Origin: Methanosalsum zhilinae DSM 4017
GTDB lineage: Archaea > Halobacteriota > Methanosarcinia > Methanosarcinales > Methanosarcinaceae
Direction: 5' to 3'
Assembly (NCBI RefSeq): GCF_000217995.1
Contig: NC_015676.1
Coordinates: 1,719,708-1,783,707, forward strand
DNA length: 64,000 bases
The position numbers and the translations under genes were made by a program. Below the pieces are notes generated by a model. The model was given only the letters and a program-made list of their open reading frames with translations. It searched no databases and was not told the DNA's origin. Positions 16,668 to 32,001 of this stretch are shown here, in pieces. Positions within the stretch are counted from its first letter, which is position 1. Each line of letters opens with the position of its first letter.

Positions 16668-19600
16668 ATGACCACAGATCTTGTTGAAATGAGCATGACT
16701 ACCGGTAAATGGCAATTCTGGATAGATCGCGGAGGCACCTTTACTGATATTGTTGCAGAAAATCCTGAAGGACAGCTGATCACACATAAACTCCTCTCAT
16801 GCAACCCTGAACAGTACAGTGATTCCTCAATCCAGGGTATCAGAGATATCCTGGGCTGTGATCCGGATCAGGAAATTCCTTCTGGAATAATAGAAACCAT
16901 CAGAATGGGTACAACCATCGGCACCAATGCACTTCTGGAAAGGAAGGGAGAGAGAACAGTACTTGTAACTACCAGGGGTTTCAGGGACCTGCTGGAAATC
17001 GGGTACCAGAACAGACCTGACATTTTTGCACTCAATATCCTCAAAACAGATCAGCTGTATGAAAGGGTGATTGAGGTTGATGAAAGATATGATGCCAGTG
17101 GCAGGAAAATACACAGGCCAAATATAGAATCACTTAAAAGGAAACTCGAAGATGCATTCAGTTCAGGGATAAGAGCAGTTGCTGTTGCACTGATGCATGC
17201 ATACAGGTACCCTGATCATGAAATTGAGATTGCAGAGATTGCCAGAGAAACAGGATTTACCCAGATATCACTGTCCCACAGGGTCAGCCCTCTTATCAGG
17301 ATCATCAACCGTGCCGAGACTGCCGTGGTTGATGCTTATCTCTCACCTGTACTTAGAAGATATACTGAGAATATCAGCACTGTACTGGGAACCAGCAGTA
17401 ATGATGGAACACGCCTTATGTTCATGCAATCCAATGGCGGACTTGTGGATGCCAGATCATTTCAGGGTAAGGACTGTATCCTCTCAGGGCCTGCAGGAGG
17501 AATTGTGGGAGCAGTCCAGACCTCGCGGATTGCAGGTTTTGACAGGATCATCAGTTTTGATATGGGAGGAACATCCACAGATGTTGCACATTACAGGGGA
17601 GAATATGAAAGAAGTTTTGATAACATGATCGCAGGCATTCATCTCCAGTCACCGATGATGAAGATACATACCATAGCAGCTGGAGGGGGCTCAGTCCTTC
17701 ATTTTGATGGTGAACGTATGAAGGTGGGCCCTGATTCTGCAGGATCAAACCCGGGTCCTGCCTGCTATCGCATGGGTGGTCCGCTTACAGTCACAGACTG
17801 CAATGTCATGCTGGGCAGAATCCAGGCAGACCATTTTCCCCATGTGTTCGGGCCGGAAGGCAACATGCCACTGGATGAGGAGACAGTACATGATACGTTC
17901 AGCAGGCTTGCACAGGAGGTAACAGCTTCCACAGGCAGGAAATATACACCAGAGGAGGTGGCAGAAGGTTTTCTGGATGTGGCTGTTGAGAACATGGCAA
18001 ATGCCATCAAGAAGATCTCGCTGCAGAAGGGATATGATGTGAAAGAATATACCCTGTGCTGTTTTGGAGGTGCAGGGGGCCAGCATGCATGCAGGGTTGC
18101 AGATACTCTAGGTATTGATACTATATTCATTCATCCGTATGCAGGAGTTCTTTCAGCCTATGGAATCGGGCTGGCAGACCAGAGAGAGATACTGGAGCAG
18201 GCAATTGAAAAAAAACTAAGGGAAGATGTGGTTGAAGAGGTAAGGGATATACTGTCCGATCTTGAGAAAGAGGGTAAAAACCGGCTTGTCCAGCAGAATG
18301 TCATGCAGGATAACATAATATCTGTTGCCAGGATGCATATCAGGTACAGTGGTTCAGATACCAACCTGCAGATCGAACTTGAGGATGGTATGGATCAGCA
18401 GTCCATAGCATCCGCCTTTAACAGAAAACACAGGCAGATCTTCGGGTTCATGGACCCTGAAAGAACACCTGTTATTGAGGCTGTATCAATGGAGGTGATA
18501 GGTACCACTGAAAGAATAGCTGAAAGGGTTCATGAGACACATGAGAATGTGGAGTGCATACCCGCCAGAAAGATCAGGACCTATTTTTACGGACAGTACC
18601 ATGATACACCGATATTCCTGCGAAATGATCTAAGACCCGGGTGCAGAATACAGGGACCTTCAGTGATCATAGAGGATACATCAACCATAGTGATAGAGCC
18701 TGGATGGGAGGGTGAGATCACACAGCACAATCATATTATCCTCAGGCGGGTAATGCCCCGATTTTGTGACAATATTGCAGATACTTCAGCCGACCCTGTA
18801 ATGCTTGAGATATTCAATAACAGATTCATGTCCATTGCCGAGCAGATGGGATACACTCTCCAGAACACTTCACATTCTGTCAATATCAAGGAACGGCGGG
18901 ACTTTTCATGTGCACTGTTTGACAGAGATGGAAACCTGATAGCAAATGCTCCACACATTCCTGTGCATATAGGATCAATGAGCGAATCTGTCAGATCACT
19001 TATCAGAAACGTGCCTGATATGGAAGATGGAGATACCTATCTGATAAACTCTCCCTATCAGGGAGGTACTCATCTTCCTGATATCACTGTAATTACTCCT
19101 GTATTTGATAGCAGGAATGAGAGATATGCATATGTGGCTTCCAGAGGTCATCATGCAGATATCGGGGGAAAGACTCCAGGTTCTATGCCACATGATAGCA
19201 GGAACATACATGAAGAAGGTGTCCTGACCAGCGGTCTCAGGATTGTCCGGAAGAGGCATTTCGATGGTGAAAGGGTGCTTCAATGGCTGGGCTCAGGTCC
19301 CTATCCTGCAAGAAAACCATTGCAGAACATGGCAGATATCAGGGCACAGATAGCTGCAAACGAAAAGGGGATTATTGAATTCCGGAAGCTGGTTGAGCAG
19401 TATTCAGAGGAGGTCATTTCATCCTATATGAAGCATGTACAGGACAATGCAGAAAATGAAGTGCGAAAGGTCATAGATGTTCTGGGCAACGGATCATATT
19501 CATACAGGATGGATGATGGAAGTATCATCAGTGTAAGGATAACAATAGATAGAACCAGAGGATGTGCATGCATTGATTTTACAGGAACTTCTGTCCAGTC

Positions 19601-20312
19601 TCCAGGAAATTTCAATGCACCGGCATCGGTATGCAGGGCAGCTGTACTGTATGTGTTCAGAACCCTGGTACAATCAGATATACCATTAAATGATGGGTGT
19701 CTCAGACCACTTGAGATAATAATTCCTGAAGGCTCCATACTGGATCCTGAATATCCGGCAGCTGTGGTTGCAGGAAATGTGGAGACCTCACAGTGTATAG
19801 TTGATACACTCTTTGCAGCTCTGGATATTATGGCACCCTCCCAGGGAACCATGAACAATTTCACCTTTGGCAATGATTCATATCAGTATTATGAGACCAT
19901 CTGCGGCGGTGCTGGGGCAGGGCCGGGGTTTGATGGAGCAGATGCAGTCCATACCCATATGACAAATTCCCGGATAACAGATCCTGAGGTCATGGAAATA
20001 AGATACCCTGTCATGCTGGAAGAGTTCTCCATCAGGAAGAACAGCGGTGGCCAGGGAAAGTACAGGGGAGGGAATGGAACAGTCAGAAAGGTCCGGTTTT
20101 TTGAAAAAATGAACGCAACCATACTCTCAGGTCACAGAAAATACCCGCCTTCCGGGCTCAGGGGAGCAGGACCTGGAAAATGCGGAGTAAACCGGGTAAT
20201 TCGAAGGGACGGGAAGGTGATCGAGATTGGAGGAAGTGGAAGTGTTCTGGTAGAACAGGGAGATCTGTTCCTGATAGAGACTCCCGGTGGAGGCGGATAT
20301 GGAGAGAAATGA
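16668..20312 (+). CDS. 5-oxoprolinase/hydantoinase-type fused HyuA-HyuB protein
   Basis: A 1214-residue single-chain protein. The N-terminal part (about 15-690) is HyuA-like, with the phosphate loop IDRGGTFTDIV and the second motif SFDMGGTSTDVAHY. The C-terminal part (about 705-1214) is HyuB-like, with NSPYQGGTHLPDITVITPVF and the Gly-rich end VEQGDLFLIETPGGGGYGEK. This full fusion is the architecture of ATP-dependent 5-oxoprolinases, which open 5-oxoproline to glutamate; hydantoinases and acetophenone carboxylases are related, so the substrate is not certain. Start choice is open: ATGs at 16668, 16692 and 16698 are all possible and none has a clear Shine-Dalgarno site. Confidence 0.85.
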   Translation: MTTDLVEMSMTTGKWQFWIDRGGTFTDIVAENPEGQLITHKLLSCNPEQYSDSSIQGIRDILGCDPDQEIPSGIIETIRMGTTIGTNALLERKGERTVLVTTRGFRDLLEIGYQNRPDIFALNILKTDQLYERVIEVDERYDASGRKIHRPNIESLKRKLEDAFSSGIRAVAVALMHAYRYPDHEIEIAEIARETGFTQISLSHRVSPLIRIINRAETAVVDAYLSPVLRRYTENISTVLGTSSNDGTRLMFMQSNGGLVDARSFQGKDCILSGPAGGIVGAVQTSRIAGFDRIISFDMGGTSTDVAHYRGEYERSFDNMIAGIHLQSPMMKIHTIAAGGGSVLHFDGERMKVGPDSAGSNPGPACYRMGGPLTVTDCNVMLGRIQADHFPHVFGPEGNMPLDEETVHDTFSRLAQEVTASTGRKYTPEEVAEGFLDVAVENMANAIKKISLQKGYDVKEYTLCCFGGAGGQHACRVADTLGIDTIFIHPYAGVLSAYGIGLADQREILEQAIEKKLREDVVEEVRDILSDLEKEGKNRLVQQNVMQDNIISVARMHIRYSGSDTNLQIELEDGMDQQSIASAFNRKHRQIFGFMDPERTPVIEAVSMEVIGTTERIAERVHETHENVECIPARKIRTYFYGQYHDTPIFLRNDLRPGCRIQGPSVIIEDTSTIVIEPGWEGEITQHNHIILRRVMPRFCDNIADTSADPVMLEIFNNRFMSIAEQMGYTLQNTSHSVNIKERRDFSCALFDRDGNLIANAPHIPVHIGSMSESVRSLIRNVPDMEDGDTYLINSPYQGGTHLPDITVITPVFDSRNERYAYVASRGHHADIGGKTPGSMPHDSRNIHEEGVLTSGLRIVRKRHFDGERVLQWLGSGPYPARKPLQNMADIRAQIAANEKGIIEFRKLVEQYSEEVISSYMKHVQDNAENEVRKVIDVLGNGSYSYRMDDGSIISVRITIDRTRGCACIDFTGTSVQSPGNFNAPASVCRAAVLYVFRTLVQSDIPLNDGCLRPLEIIIPEGSILDPEYPAAVVAGNVETSQCIVDTLFAALDIMAPSQGTMNNFTFGNDSYQYYETICGGAGAGPGFDGADAVHTHMTNSRITDPEVMEIRYPVMLEEFSIRKNSGGQGKYRGGNGTVRKVRFFEKMNATILSGHRKYPPSGLRGAGPGKCGVNRVIRRDGKVIEIGGSGSVLVEQGDLFLIETPGGGGYGEK

Positions 20313-22956: not shown

Positions 22957-24948
22957 TCAGCGTATCATGTATCTGATATCAGCACAGACACTGGGATAGG
23001 CCCAGGCCATTTCCTTGAGTTCCTGGCGTGTGATGCCCTTTCGCATTGCCATTGAGAAGATATTGATCACCTCTTCTGCCCTGTGGCCAAGTATATGGGC
23101 ACCAACTATCCTGTCACTTTCCTGATCCACAATGATCTTGGAAGCTGCATACTTTTCATTCACCTGCCTGCTTGAGTACCAGTCTGTTCGGTCATGAGAG
23201 ATTACCTGATGACCCTTTGTGACCTTTCTGCTGTCAATTCCGGCTGAGGCCAGGGCAGGAATTGTGAAAACTACTGCAGGAATGGCTGTGTAATCAACTG
23301 TCTTGCGGTTGCCGCCGGTGATATTGTCTGCCACTGCAAATGCTTCAAGATTGGCTGTGGGGATCAGTTTGGGACCATTCTCATTGCAGTCACCTGCTGC
23401 ATATACTCCCGGATTGGAGATGCTCTGCATGTATTTGTTCACCACAACTCCTGCAGGACCTGCTTCCACATTACCCTGTGCCAGATCCAGTTCATCAAGT
23501 GCTGCAACCCTGCCTGCCCCATGTACCACCAGGTCACATGCATAGACCTTACCAGAATCGGTCCTTACAAGATATCTCTCACCGGTCTTTTCAATTTCTG
23601 TTACAGGAGAACGGGTCACAATCTCAATACCAATCTTTTCTGTAGCTTCTACCAGGATATCCACCATATCAGGATCAAATTCCTTGAGAGCCCTGGAGTT
23701 TCTCTGAAGTATTACCACCTCTGAACCTGCCCTTGCAGCCACATGGGCAAATTCGAATGAAATATAACCACCGCCAATGAACACGATCTTCTCAGGCAGT
23801 GATTCAAGTTCCAGGAACCGGTCACTGCTAATTACGTGTTCCTCACCTTCAATACCCAGTTTAGCAGGCTTTGCACCGGTTGCCAGCACAATGTACCGGG
23901 AGTGGACCTTTTTGCCATCGATCTGCAGCAGTGATCTGCCTGCAAAGCGTGCAGTTGCATGATAGGTCCTGATACCCCTTTCACTAAATTTTCTCTCAAA
24001 CCTTTCAGGTACAGGGTCTGTGAATGTGCGCTTGAACCTCATCAGGGACTGCCAGTCTATACCTATCCCATCAGAACCCTTCAGGCCATTGTCACCCATC
24101 TGCCTTGCCTGTTCCATTATCTCCACTGCACCTGTTAGCACCTTCTTGGGATTGCAGCCTCTCTGGGCACAGGTTCCGCCATAGCTGCGGTTATCCACAA
24201 CTGCCACATCCATTCCTGCGGACCTGCACTTATGTGCCACTGTGGCTCCTGCAGCACCGGTTCCGATTACCACCACATCGTGGTGAATGTCTGCCTGTGT
24301 TTCCTCAACCATCTTCTCCCTTTTCTTCCTGAAGGTCTCAAAGATCTCTATGGCTTCATCATCAGGGACATCGTACCAGTTACGATATACCTGCGCCACT
24401 GCCCTGAAATCATCAGGGATCTCCAGTACCACATAATCATCTGATTCATTTCTGATCTGCAGGCTTGTCCTGCGTCCTGCCACAGGTACTGCAACAACTA
24501 TTCTTTCAGGGTTGCGTTTCCTGCACATGCGTATGGCAGCCATCATGGTAGAGCCCATGGCAATCCCGTCATCCACCAGTATAACTGTCCTTGATTTGAT
24601 ATCAGGCAGTGGCTCACCTTTTCTCAGTACCTTGATGCGCCGGTCAATTTCCCTGATCTGCTCCTTCTTTATCCTCTCAATGGTACCCCTGTCAAGCCAG
24701 AGTGCAGCATCCTTTATGATATAGGTGGTTCCATCCTCTGCAATGGCTCCAAAACCACCTTCTGTATAATCAGGAAACGGTAGTTTTCTTGAGATCAGGT
24801 AGGAGAACTCAGAGTTTAGATATTTTGCCACCTCTGCACCAACCTGGGCACCGCCTTTTGGTATTGTCAGTACCACAGGGTCACTGTTTCTGTATCGGTC
24901 AAGTTTTCTTGCTAGCTGTTCTCCTGCATCCTTTCTATCATGAAACAT
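22957..24948 (-). CDS. Phosphoribosyltransferase fused to a flavin-dependent disulfide reductase
   Basis: A 663-residue two-domain protein. Residues about 1-205 are a type I phosphoribosyltransferase with the PRPP loop VILVDDGIAMGST (about 122-134) and FPKGG-like LTIPKGGAQVGAEVA near 28. After a charged linker, residues about 220-663 are an FAD/NAD(P) disulfide reductase with VVVIGTGAAG (225-234), the redox cysteines GGTCAQRGC (Cys260, Cys265) and the NAD motif FIGGGYISFEFAHVAARAG. The C-terminal His of the usual HPT motif is replaced (AYPSVCADIRYMIR). ATG 24948 is preferred to a TTG at 24981 because GGAG lies 10 bases upstream and overlap with the SDR gene is avoided. The joint function is unknown. 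Confidence 0.88.
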   Translation of the reverse strand: MFHDRKDAGEQLARKLDRYRNSDPVVLTIPKGGAQVGAEVAKYLNSEFSYLISRKLPFPDYTEGGFGAIAEDGTTYIIKDAALWLDRGTIERIKKEQIREIDRRIKVLRKGEPLPDIKSRTVILVDDGIAMGSTMMAAIRMCRKRNPERIVVAVPVAGRRTSLQIRNESDDYVVLEIPDDFRAVAQVYRNWYDVPDDEAIEIFETFRKKREKMVEETQADIHHDVVVIGTGAAGATVAHKCRSAGMDVAVVDNRSYGGTCAQRGCNPKKVLTGAVEIMEQARQMGDNGLKGSDGIGIDWQSLMRFKRTFTDPVPERFERKFSERGIRTYHATARFAGRSLLQIDGKKVHSRYIVLATGAKPAKLGIEGEEHVISSDRFLELESLPEKIVFIGGGYISFEFAHVAARAGSEVVILQRNSRALKEFDPDMVDILVEATEKIGIEIVTRSPVTEIEKTGERYLVRTDSGKVYACDLVVHGAGRVAALDELDLAQGNVEAGPAGVVVNKYMQSISNPGVYAAGDCNENGPKLIPTANLEAFAVADNITGGNRKTVDYTAIPAVVFTIPALASAGIDSRKVTKGHQVISHDRTDWYSSRQVNEKYAASKIIVDQESDRIVGAHILGHRAEEVINIFSMAMRKGITRQELKEMAWAYPSVCADIRYMIR

Positions 24949-24964
24949 GTATGATCTACTCCTA

Positions 24965-25657
24965 TTAGCGATACATTTCAATAGCCGAACCTGTGGGTAT
25001 CACGGATTCAGGCAGACACATCTCCATTACCTGATACGCCACGTCTTCTGGTTTGAGGGGTGGCTCATCATCAAACATTGACCGATACATTCCGGTATCC
25101 ACTCCTCCAGGACACAGTGCATATACTCTTATCTCATCCAGTTCATAGGCAAGTGCCTGTGTGAGTCCTATAACCGCTGCCTTGGATGCACTGTATACTG
25201 CAAGTGAAGGAATACCGTGCTTGCCTGCACCTGATGAAATATTGACTATTCTGCCGCTGTTTCTGGGAACCATGTACCTTAGTGCATGCTTTGTGCACAG
25301 GTACACACCCTTTACATTGGTATCCATTATTGTGTCATATTCCTGAGTGGTGGTTTCAACAAACGGTTTTCTAACAGCAGTACCTGCACAGTTTACCAGG
25401 ATATCTATCTTGCCAAAGCGCTCAGCAGTCCGGGTCATGAGATTTTCAACATCCATCTCAGAGTGTACATCTGTCTGCACTGCCAGTGCCCTGCTACCTT
25501 TCTGTTTTACCATCTCTGCAGTCTGGCTGATCTCAGCCTCAGTTCTTGCAGCAGCAACAATATCTGCACCCTCATCTGCAAGTGCCAGGCATATGGCACG
25601 ACCAATACCTCTACCGGCTCCTGTTACAACTGCAACATGACCTTTGAGTCTCATCAT
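24965..25657 (-). CDS. Short-chain dehydrogenase/reductase
   Basis: A 230-residue classical SDR. Nucleotide motif VVTGAGRGIGRAICLALA (residues 9-26), NAG motif as ILVNCAGTAVRKP (about 86-98), catalytic Ser in NISSGAG near 140 and YSASKAA near 154, followed by CPGGVDTGMY. The alanine and arginine residues after the first strand (AAARTEAE) suggest NADP(H) preference. The gene precedes the phosphoribosyltransferase-reductase fusion by 16 bases in the same direction. It resembles FabG-type 3-oxoacyl reductases, but methanogens make no bacterial fatty acids, so the substrate is unknown. Confidence 0.88.
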   Translation of the reverse strand: MMRLKGHVAVVTGAGRGIGRAICLALADEGADIVAAARTEAEISQTAEMVKQKGSRALAVQTDVHSEMDVENLMTRTAERFGKIDILVNCAGTAVRKPFVETTTQEYDTIMDTNVKGVYLCTKHALRYMVPRNSGRIVNISSGAGKHGIPSLAVYSASKAAVIGLTQALAYELDEIRVYALCPGGVDTGMYRSMFDDEPPLKPEDVAYQVMEMCLPESVIPTGSAIEMYR

Positions 25658-28738: not shown

Positions 28739-30076
28739 TTAAAGCATTGACCTGATATCTGTGGATGCTGTCGGGTACGAGTACGGGAATGTTTTCAGTT
28801 TCTCTGCAGGGATCTTCAGGCGCATTGCCATTGAGAAGATATTGATCACCTCTTCTGCTTCAGGTCCCAGCAGGTGTGCTCCTGCGATCAGTCCGGTCTT
28901 TTCATCAATGATGATTTTGGAGGCACTGTATCCGTAATTTGTGCGTCTTGAGGAGATCCAGTCCTTCTTATCATTGAATATCACCCTGTGCCTGCCCTCC
29001 TGTACCTGAGTGCTGTCAATTCCCACAGAGGCCAGGGGTGGTACTGTGAAGACAACTCCGGAAATGCCGGTATAGTCTATGGGTTCAACATTTCCTTCAA
29101 TGATATTGGTTGCAGCAACTGCTGCCTGGTAGGCTGCTGTGGGTGTGAGCTGCTTGAAGTCTCCGGTCACATCACCTACAGAATAGATATGCTTGCTGGA
29201 TACACTCTGCATATACTCATTGACAACGATCCGGCCCTTCTGAGTCTCAATTCCTGCTTTTTCAACATCAAGATCAGCGGTCTGGGGCACCCTGCCTGCA
29301 CCGTGCACCACCATTCCGGTTATGAAAGAGTCACCATCCTTTGTGGTTACCTGGTATGAATCTCCCAGCCATTCTATTGAAACCGGCTCCTTTTCTGTAA
29401 TCACATCAATTCCTGCGTCCTCTGTTGCCTTTACCACAAGATCAACCATTTCAGGATCAAAGCCTTTTAAAACCCTGCTGCTTCTGTTCAGTATCCGTAC
29501 CTCTGCACCAGTCCTGGCAGCCACATGGGCAAACTCGAATGAGATAAACCCGCCTCCAATAAATGTAATATCATCCGGCAGGATATCCAGTTCCATGAAT
29601 CCGTCACTTGTTACCAGATGTTCCCCACCTTTAATTCCCAGTTCTGCAGGTTTTGCACCGGTGGCAATCACTATGTATTTACCCCGGATTTTGGTGTCGT
29701 TGAATTCCAGGGTGTGACTGTCCAGAAAGCGCGCCCTTCCGTGATAGGTGGCTATTCCCAGGGATTTTAACCAGTTCTCGGTCTTCTCGGCTACAGGGTC
29801 TGTGAAGGTGCGCTTGAATTTGATGAGTTCAGACCATTGGAGTTTGAAGTCGCCTGATACAGGACTGCCCTTATCGATCATTCGCATGGGCCAGTCTATC
29901 ATATCAGCACCTCCCACCAGTACCTTCTTGGGGATACACCCCCTCTGCGGGCATGTTCCACCGTATCCACCGGAGTCTATGACAGCTACACTCATTCCTC
30001 CATCCCTGCACCTGGAGGCAGCTGCCCCGCCTGAAACTCCGGTACCGATCACTATCACATCATATTCTTCTGCCAT
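28739..30076 (-). CDS. Flavin-dependent disulfide reductase-like oxidoreductase
   Basis: A 445-residue class I pyridine nucleotide-disulfide reductase. FAD motif VIGTGVSGGAAASRC, redox cysteines GGTCPQRGC (Cys42, Cys47), NAD(P) motif FIGGGFISFEFAHVAARTG, and the dimerisation domain (about 330-445). The active-site His-Pro-Thr expected near the end is SYPTASTDIRSML here, so the usual acid-base His is absent. It is closely similar to the reductase half of the fusion at 22957-24948 and is probably a paralogue without the phosphoribosyltransferase part. ATG 30076 is chosen because AGGGGTG sits 8 bases upstream. The substrate is unknown. Confidence 0.88.
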   Translation of the reverse strand: MAEEYDVIVIGTGVSGGAAASRCRDGGMSVAVIDSGGYGGTCPQRGCIPKKVLVGGADMIDWPMRMIDKGSPVSGDFKLQWSELIKFKRTFTDPVAEKTENWLKSLGIATYHGRARFLDSHTLEFNDTKIRGKYIVIATGAKPAELGIKGGEHLVTSDGFMELDILPDDITFIGGGFISFEFAHVAARTGAEVRILNRSSRVLKGFDPEMVDLVVKATEDAGIDVITEKEPVSIEWLGDSYQVTTKDGDSFITGMVVHGAGRVPQTADLDVEKAGIETQKGRIVVNEYMQSVSSKHIYSVGDVTGDFKQLTPTAAYQAAVAATNIIEGNVEPIDYTGISGVVFTVPPLASVGIDSTQVQEGRHRVIFNDKKDWISSRRTNYGYSASKIIIDEKTGLIAGAHLLGPEAEEVINIFSMAMRLKIPAEKLKTFPYSYPTASTDIRSML

Positions 30077-30150
30077 TCCCAAAACACCCCTTGAAAAGAA
30101 AATCTATGTACTATTTCGACAGTTTTTGTCATATAGTTTCTGGAACAATG

Positions 30151-32001
30151 TTACCTGTACCTGGCTGCCACACAGGAGTCAAGACACCTGCCACAGGCAT
30201 TGCAGGATTCATCTATCCTGAGACCCTGGTCCAGTGATATGCAGTCTGCAGGGCAGACCTTTGTGCACAGTCCGCACAGGGTACAGTTCCTGATCCTTGC
30301 AAGGTTTGCTGCGGTGGTGTTGAAGATCTCTTCTGCACTTTCCCTGGACCCTGCGCGCACCTTCAGTGATCCTGTGGAGTAATAGGTTATGCTGAACTCA
30401 TCTGTATTGACAGCAATTACTCCCAGTTCCTCTGATGAGGTTATACTTCCCATGACATACATCACTCCCTCCACCTCACTGAAGGTGAGGCCTGTGACGT
30501 TTGCCTCTACTGAATATCCGCCTGCAGTACAGGGGGATGTTCCTGAAACCGAGTGGATTTCAAACCTGCCTTTTCTTTCTGCAGGTTTTGTTTTGATACC
30601 AAGCTTTTCTGCAAGTTTTAGCATTTTCGGAGGATGTGATTGCCAGCGCCAGAAGCCGTGGTCTATGTATTCTTCTGGCAGGGAGTGCTCTGTGGCCCAG
30701 TTTTTGAGGTATGAGTTCCACTGTTGATACATTTGAGGATATTTTTTCTTTACAATCTCATATTCTGCCTGCATGGACGCAGGACACAGATAGCAGCCAA
30801 CCCTTTCAAAACCTGTGTCGTAGAGTGGGTTGTAGTCAAGTTTTCGCCAGTGAATGTACAGCCAGACCTCAATTGCCCTCCAGTTTCGTATTGGGAAGAT
30901 GTTGAGCTGTCCCGGTACAAAGGGGTTCATTTCACTGGCAGGTGTGGATGATCTGCTGAATGATTCGTATCTTCTTTTCCCGTCAATGGTGAGGCAGGTT
31001 CCATTGCTGCTGGAGCAGTTCTCAACTGCCTTTGCTGCCGGTGCAAGCTTGCAGACCTTGCAGCACCACCTGAAATCCTTGCCCGGGGGTCCGAAGCTGT
31101 CAATGTTTTCCCAGAAGGCGTTTCCTGCAGATTCTTCTGTTAAGGGAACTTTCCTTTCTCTGCAGTGTTTTCTGACAAATTCCACAGTATCAGGAAATTC
31201 CAGGCCGGTGTTTACAAAGACTGCCTTTACATCCCTTTTTTTCAGGGCACTGAGTGCCAGGTCAAGTACCACCAGGCTATCCTTTCCTCCACTAAAGGAT
31301 ACCTGTACCGGCATTTTTCTGTACTGTTTCTGGTTTGCAATTCCCCTGATGATATTCATGCCGTCTTTGCCAAGTCTTCGTATGTGGTCTATGTTTGCGG
31401 CTATGATGTCCTCCATTGAGGGGGTTTCTGGAAGAAGCTGTGCACCGGATCTTTTTATATCCTGGATCTTTAGAATTCCTGATTCCTGCCATTCACCTGC
31501 TCCTGCAAGTCCTGTTTCTGTCCGGATCAGGACCGGGGATTCGGGAATGCCTGCAGTGTTTTCCGGTTTGACCTTCTTGCCGCTGAGGTGTCGTCCTGTA
31601 TCCTCTATGGTTACCACATTCTCTGTTGCAGTCTCCAGGAGCAGTGCGGCACCGTCTGCTGTTGGCCTGAACCTGTGCTTTTTTGTGACCGGATCAAACC
31701 ACATGAGCCCGGCTTTGATACCGTCCACAATGACCTCATCACTTCGATCATCCCCTGGTACCTTGTTCAGGAGAATGATCCTGCCGTCAAATGGACTGGT
31801 CCCGAAGTGTTCCATCAGAAGCCCTGATAATAACTGATTTTCATATTCTGATGCAAACCTGATATCTCCAGGTTCTGTCAGCTGGATCCTGCGACCCTGC
31901 CCTTTGCACCTGCAGCATATCCTGTCTGCGAGCGGTGTGTTGCATTCCATGCACCAGTGGATATGTTCACCGGTTCTGCGCTGTTTTTTTGAGTGTTTCA
32001 A
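30151..32001 (-). CDS. PAPS/APS reductase-like PP-loop protein with Zn-ribbon, PUA-like and ferredoxin modules
   Basis: A 616-residue multidomain protein: an N-terminal zinc ribbon (CMEC 17-20, CCRC 29-32), a segment resembling a PUA domain (about 85-160), a PP-loop ATPase of the PAPS reductase family (SGGKDS at 237-242, then CC at 313-314 with Cys317, and GCYLCP near 425), and a C-terminal two-cluster ferredoxin (CTLCGLCTKVCP and CNACGRCLDSC). Methanogen homologues are annotated as PAPS reductases, but an RNA-binding-looking front end and a built-in electron donor also fit a thiolation enzyme. It is divergent from the flippase gene and 74 bases before the disulfide reductase gene. Confidence 0.82.
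   Translation of the reverse strand: MKHSKKQRRTGEHIHWCMECNTPLADRICCRCKGQGRRIQLTEPGDIRFASEYENQLLSGLLMEHFGTSPFDGRIILLNKVPGDDRSDEVIVDGIKAGLMWFDPVTKKHRFRPTADGAALLLETATENVVTIEDTGRHLSGKKVKPENTAGIPESPVLIRTETGLAGAGEWQESGILKIQDIKRSGAQLLPETPSMEDIIAANIDHIRRLGKDGMNIIRGIANQKQYRKMPVQVSFSGGKDSLVVLDLALSALKKRDVKAVFVNTGLEFPDTVEFVRKHCRERKVPLTEESAGNAFWENIDSFGPPGKDFRWCCKVCKLAPAAKAVENCSSSNGTCLTIDGKRRYESFSRSSTPASEMNPFVPGQLNIFPIRNWRAIEVWLYIHWRKLDYNPLYDTGFERVGCYLCPASMQAEYEIVKKKYPQMYQQWNSYLKNWATEHSLPEEYIDHGFWRWQSHPPKMLKLAEKLGIKTKPAERKGRFEIHSVSGTSPCTAGGYSVEANVTGLTFSEVEGVMYVMGSITSSEELGVIAVNTDEFSITYYSTGSLKVRAGSRESAEEIFNTTAANLARIRNCTLCGLCTKVCPADCISLDQGLRIDESCNACGRCLDSCVAARYR

Follow-up and report, generated by a model that had tools for sequence, protein, structure and literature searches.

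A phosphoribosyltransferase and a flavin disulfide reductase joined in a single chain in Methanosalsum zhilinae

Why should a phosphoribosyltransferase (PRTase) and a flavin disulfide reductase share one polypeptide? The question is raised by a gene of Methanosalsum zhilinae DSM 4017, located at 22957..24948 on the minus strand of the window (by which we mean the whole 64,000-nucleotide stretch of DNA analysed here), which encodes both domains in one open frame of 663 amino acids. A sequence-only reading had drawn attention to this gene and suggested that its product could link nucleotide salvage to redox state, or act on a nucleotide-bearing thiol. A search of a literature collection returned nothing on this fusion, and nothing under COG1926.

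The frame runs from an ATG at 24948 to a stop codon at 22957-22959 and, when translated, comprises 663 codons with no internal stops. Inspection of the sequence also revealed a ribosome-binding-like GGAG preceding the gene. Pfam assigned Pribosyltran (PF00156) to residues 6-187 of the chain (E = 1.1e-16), and Pyr_redox_2 (PF07992) together with Pyr_redox_dim (PF02852) to residues 223-654 (E = 2.1e-57 and 9.1e-17, respectively). Chance resemblance is excluded, because both halves are homologous over their whole length to solved structures (1wd5 and 8k40). The fusion is real in sequence, and the claim that a single chain carries both domains was borne out by the uninterrupted minus-strand frame and by the Pfam domains in its two halves.

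The PRTase domain occupies residues 1-205 (24334..24948, minus strand), as judged from Pfam PF00156, phmmer, and the predicted fold. Its nearest solved relative is TT1426 from Thermus thermophilus (1wd5; phmmer E = 7.4e-30). AlphaFold2 modelling, which covered the PRTase domain alone, gave a pLDDT of 94.9, and Foldseek returned 1wd5 as the top match to the model with a TM score of 0.83, the runner-up being at about 0.53. By fold and by sequence similarity across the whole domain, this half is a type I PRTase of the TT1426-like kind. The two proteins also have the acidic PRPP motif in common, but they are about 35% identical, their loops differ (ATGASM in TT1426 vs. AMGSTM in the Methanosalsum PRTase), and TT1426 is unfused. 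We take TT1426 to be of the COG1926 type, with actinobacterial relatives that presumably include Rv0571c. The latter is listed as not yet characterised (PMC5309233).

The PRPP loop had been described as intact, and this holds in part only. The loop region, which we defined from an alignment of homologues, spans residues 121-135 (TVILVDDGIAMGSTM; 24544..24588, minus strand) and is recognisable: the loop reads DDGIAMGST, the acidic pair is present, and D126, D127, G128, A130, G132, and T134 are invariant in an alignment of 29 homologues, M135 likewise being invariant among aligned homologues. However, residue 131 is Met, which replaces the first Thr of TGxT. The alignment has Met at this position in the PRTase subfamily found here and Thr in other PRTases; 39 of the 41 subfamily loci carry the Met, locus L102 reads ATGST, and locus L120 gave no call. 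Such a subfamily-wide substitution, together with the weak similarity of the domain to PyrR, GfcR, and other regulatory PRTases, in which the PRTase fold has been reused, would fit a PRTase half that has lost transferase activity and acts as a PRPP or nucleotide sensor regulating the reductase. We consider this rather unlikely, given the invariance of the D126-D127 pair, G132, and T134, and given that TT1426-like PRTases elsewhere stand alone, with no reductase attached.

The proposed role in nucleotide salvage found no support. None of the curated NCBIfam models for HGPRT, APRT, UPRT, and OPRT came near its cut-off (the best score was 37.7 bits vs. 181), and the suggested link between salvage and redox state is without support beyond gene proximity. 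A role in a defence system was rejected: PADLOC gave a weak match of the PRTase to ShosT (E = 1e-4), which we read as general PRTase similarity. The family Methanosarcinaceae also has a second PRTase, 34-37% identical and with a canonical ATGATM loop (L048:8211-8876 and L106:1024-2383), whose gene in L106 overlaps that of an alpha/beta hydrolase.

The other half of the chain, residues 222-663 (22960..24285, minus strand; PF07992 and PF02852), was correctly recognised from the outset as a complete disulfide reductase with CxxxxC; it has the FAD, NAD(P), and dimerisation domains of the class I flavin disulfide reductases. The redox-active cysteines, Cys260 and Cys265, lie in the motif CAQRGC (24154..24171, minus strand), which is followed by Asn266 and aligns with CALRGCD of GbsMerA from Gelidibacter salicanalis (8k40/8k41), the nearest solved relative (E = 3e-110 to 8k40, over the full length). 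GbsMerA is an NADPH-dependent mercuric reductase with neither NmerA nor a C-terminal Cys pair (PMC10587081), and in the alignment both CxxxxC and the NADPH-type motif GGGYIS...QRNSR of the fused reductase are conserved as in NADPH-bound GbsMerA (PMC10587081). Tyr651 (22996..22998, minus strand) takes the place of the His that is catalytic in glutathione reductase, and it is the equivalent of the active-site Tyr437 of GbsMerA (alignment of AYPSVCADIRYMI vs. SYPTLASDIPHML). Full-length similarity and the Tyr437 equivalent place the fused reductase with a GbsMerA-like clade, whereas Asn266 takes the place of Asp47, which follows Cys41/Cys46 in GbsMerA. As the residue after the second Cys varies among relatives (D, N, I, V, or T), an Asp47 equivalent may not define the clade. 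The fused reductase differs further from GbsMerA in that there are no mer genes nearby and a PRTase is attached. A bacterial reductase of 45% identity (L129:1498-2841) adjoins genes for a MerR-type regulator and MerT/MerP-like proteins, which suggests that the GbsMerA-like clade includes more mercury-operon reductases.

Glutathione reductase, dihydrolipoyl dehydrogenase, and classical MerA have CxxxxC and the fold of the class I flavin disulfide reductases in common with the fused reductase, but the scores for the respective curated models all fell far short of their cut-offs (291 vs. 480, 279 vs. 409, and 273 vs. 454 bits). Identity with glutathione reductase was rejected on this score and on the presence of Tyr651 instead of the catalytic His (HPT). 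Classical MerA was rejected as well; it has N- or C-terminal Hg-binding cysteines, in the form of an NmerA domain and/or a vicinal pair at the C-terminus, which are missing from the fused reductase, whose chain ends in ...CADIRYMIR and whose N-terminal domain is the PRTase. In Methanosarcina, CoM-SH serves as the reductant for a glutaredoxin-like protein, and a CoM disulfide reductase is on record from another methanogen (PMC7278568), which would make CoM disulfide a sensible candidate substrate. In one genome (G006), the reductase gene is found in two pieces (L046 and L047), which lie on opposite strands of a single contig at a distance of about 300 kb. The division falls near query residue 460 and looks as though the gene had been broken by a rearrangement of the chromosome.

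Two of the neighbours that had been pointed out in the sequence-only reading were readily confirmed. An SDR gene of 230 aa (24965..25657, minus strand; Pfam adh_short, E = 1.3e-62) lies upstream and ends 16 nt short of the fused gene, and a stand-alone reductase paralogue, identified by Pfam and sequence search and 51% identical to the reductase domain, lies at 28739..30082 (minus strand). In the reductase tree, this paralogue groups with a copy from another Methanosalsum genome, G001 (71% identity). The thiI and PAPS-reductase-like genes are likewise positioned near the fused gene, as had been stated, but neither recurs immediately beside the split homologues, so their links to the fused gene look positional only. 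The PAPS-reductase-like protein, encoded at 30151-32001 (minus strand), carries C-terminal 4Fe-4S motifs and matches the BREX BrxP model (E = 1.3e-58), part of which is covered. Elsewhere in the window (16668-20312, plus strand), the A and B halves of a hydantoinase/oxoprolinase occupy one 1214-aa frame; a congener contig (L045) ends within the B part.

How widespread is the fusion? Among 112 genomes of the family, residues 1-663 were matched in one chain by the window's own genome only. No second fusion was present among the matches listed for 238 class and 394 phylum genomes (the family, class, and phylum sets overlap, and phyla were sampled), or for 249 genomes of one bacterial phylum. A conserved archaeal fusion was therefore rejected. 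Two large frames that were considered as fusions proved to be an ordinary 447-aa reductase (G392) and a frame in GC-rich DNA whose upstream extension is spurious (G690). As for the congeners, the reductase of G002, the one near relative, is 92% identical and is adjoined by thiI, MATE, and a hydantoinase gene; the contig end cuts it at residue 504, inside the reductase, the junction lies outside the contig, and a search of this assembly for the SDR did not find it. G001 has the stand-alone reductase paralogue only. The fusion is lineage-restricted, and it joins two known kinds of enzyme.

All homologues found outside the window's genome, in the family, class, phylum, and bacterial searches alike, are split, an outcome that the sequence-only reading had itself named as refuting and that tells against a conserved fusion. 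This pattern, and the fact that a single change would turn several codons of the linker (CAG, GAG, GAA, and AAG) into stops, might point to a sequencing or assembly error that deleted a stop codon between two genes. Such an error is very improbable: the Methanosalsum genome is a complete, single contig of 2,138,444 bases (2.14 Mb) with 99.99% completeness, no change of frame is needed, and the linker is a mere 16 residues or so and holds no remnant of an intergenic spacer. Delimited by its codons and by alignment with the tails of split orthologues, the linker (residues 206-221, FRKKREKMVEETQADI; 24286..24333, minus strand) resembles the charged tail at the C-terminus of unfused PRTases, and it leads directly into the first reductase strand. 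It contains an internal ATG (Met213) after GGGAG, and initiation at this codon could yield free reductase besides the fused protein, in which case the effective units would be the free reductase and a C-terminally extended PRTase. We regard this as distinctly improbable, since the motif is weak, closely spaced, and embedded in a Lys/Glu/Arg-rich stretch.

The origin of the fusion is best considered in the light of the split genes. In two genomes (G007 and G020) of a related genus, g6, SDR, PRTase, YbhB, and reductase are encoded by unfused neighbouring genes on one strand, with small gaps of 13-26 nt on either side of the PRTase gene. The gene families and their order are the same as at the fused locus, but the genes are separate, and a YbhB/PEBP gene lies between those of the PRTase and the reductase, which in Methanosalsum are fused. 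An SDR homologue is found directly upstream of the PRTase in 24 of the 41 PRTase loci by strict gap, YbhB is adjacent in 10, and, besides the fused gene, the reductase is adjacent in the two g6 loci only. The SDR-PRTase pair, often with YbhB/PEBP, occurs across several methanogen genera (L038, L085-L123, and others), where it adjoins cupredoxin/cytochrome P460-like genes in one genus and a phosphate transporter in another. PRTase and reductase occur together in the family genomes above expectation (both in 36, reductase only in 24, PRTase only in 10, and neither in 42 of the 112; Fisher p = 1.7e-5, kinship being ignored). A functional link between the two is supported in part, by the split g6 operon and the widespread SDR-PRTase adjacency, though not by any conserved fusion architecture. 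The tie is nevertheless loose, because many genomes have one part alone and adjacency is confined to g6 and the present locus.

Given that g6 keeps a split four-gene operon, and that SDR-PRTase adjacency extends to about 26 of the 41 loci once two with over-extended ORF starts are added, the fusion most likely represents joined operon neighbours. On balance, we think that it is probably a lineage-restricted translational fusion of adjacent genes from a small redox/stress operon (SDR-PRTase-[YbhB]-reductase), with the two enzymes acting independently. Descent of both arrangements from one ancestral operon is likely, though short of proof, because the reductase tree does not firmly group the fused copy with the g6 operon reductases. 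Loss of a stop codon and spacer between neighbouring operon genes would be the simplest account of the fusion's origin. In such a protein, the reductase half is expected to be an obligate homodimer, in which hydride would pass from NADPH to FAD, on to the Cys260-Cys265 pair, and finally to a small disulfide or thiol-bound metal ion, with CoM disulfide, cystine, and Hg(II) as candidate substrates. The PRTase half would bind PRPP-Mg and, if its putative catalysis is retained, move the phosphoribosyl group to some acceptor, presumably as separate TT1426-type proteins do. The two sites are most likely independent, and the fusion would fix a 1:1 ratio and co-location, rather than create a new reaction.

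Direct coupling of the PRTase and the reductase is possible but unsupported. The reductase might supply a reduced thiol or thio-compound for ribosylation by the PRTase, or might reduce a nucleotide-bearing disulfide, with the intermediate being channelled. The fusion and the operon proximity are consistent with such an arrangement, and SDR, PRTase, and reductase could make up a short pathway. However, the parts are found alone in the many genomes counted above, nothing observed here places the two sites face to face, and TT1426-type PRTases are not known to us to act on a thiol, so that metabolic coupling of this kind seems unlikely to us.

If the two domains prove to be independent, as we favour, the gene is an ordinary operon-derived fusion. 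There is a small probability that it encodes a bifunctional enzyme that carries out NADPH-driven disulfide reduction and PRPP chemistry on the same compound; were this true, the substrate of the TT1426-type PRTases would come to light, and methylotrophic methanogens would have a new redox pathway linked to thiols or nucleotides. Nature's joining of the two domains hints that TT1426-type PRTases and the GbsMerA-like reductases of methanogens, both of which are poorly understood, share one process. The conserved pairing of SDR and PRTase is a more general clue than the fusion itself, and one that is directly testable.
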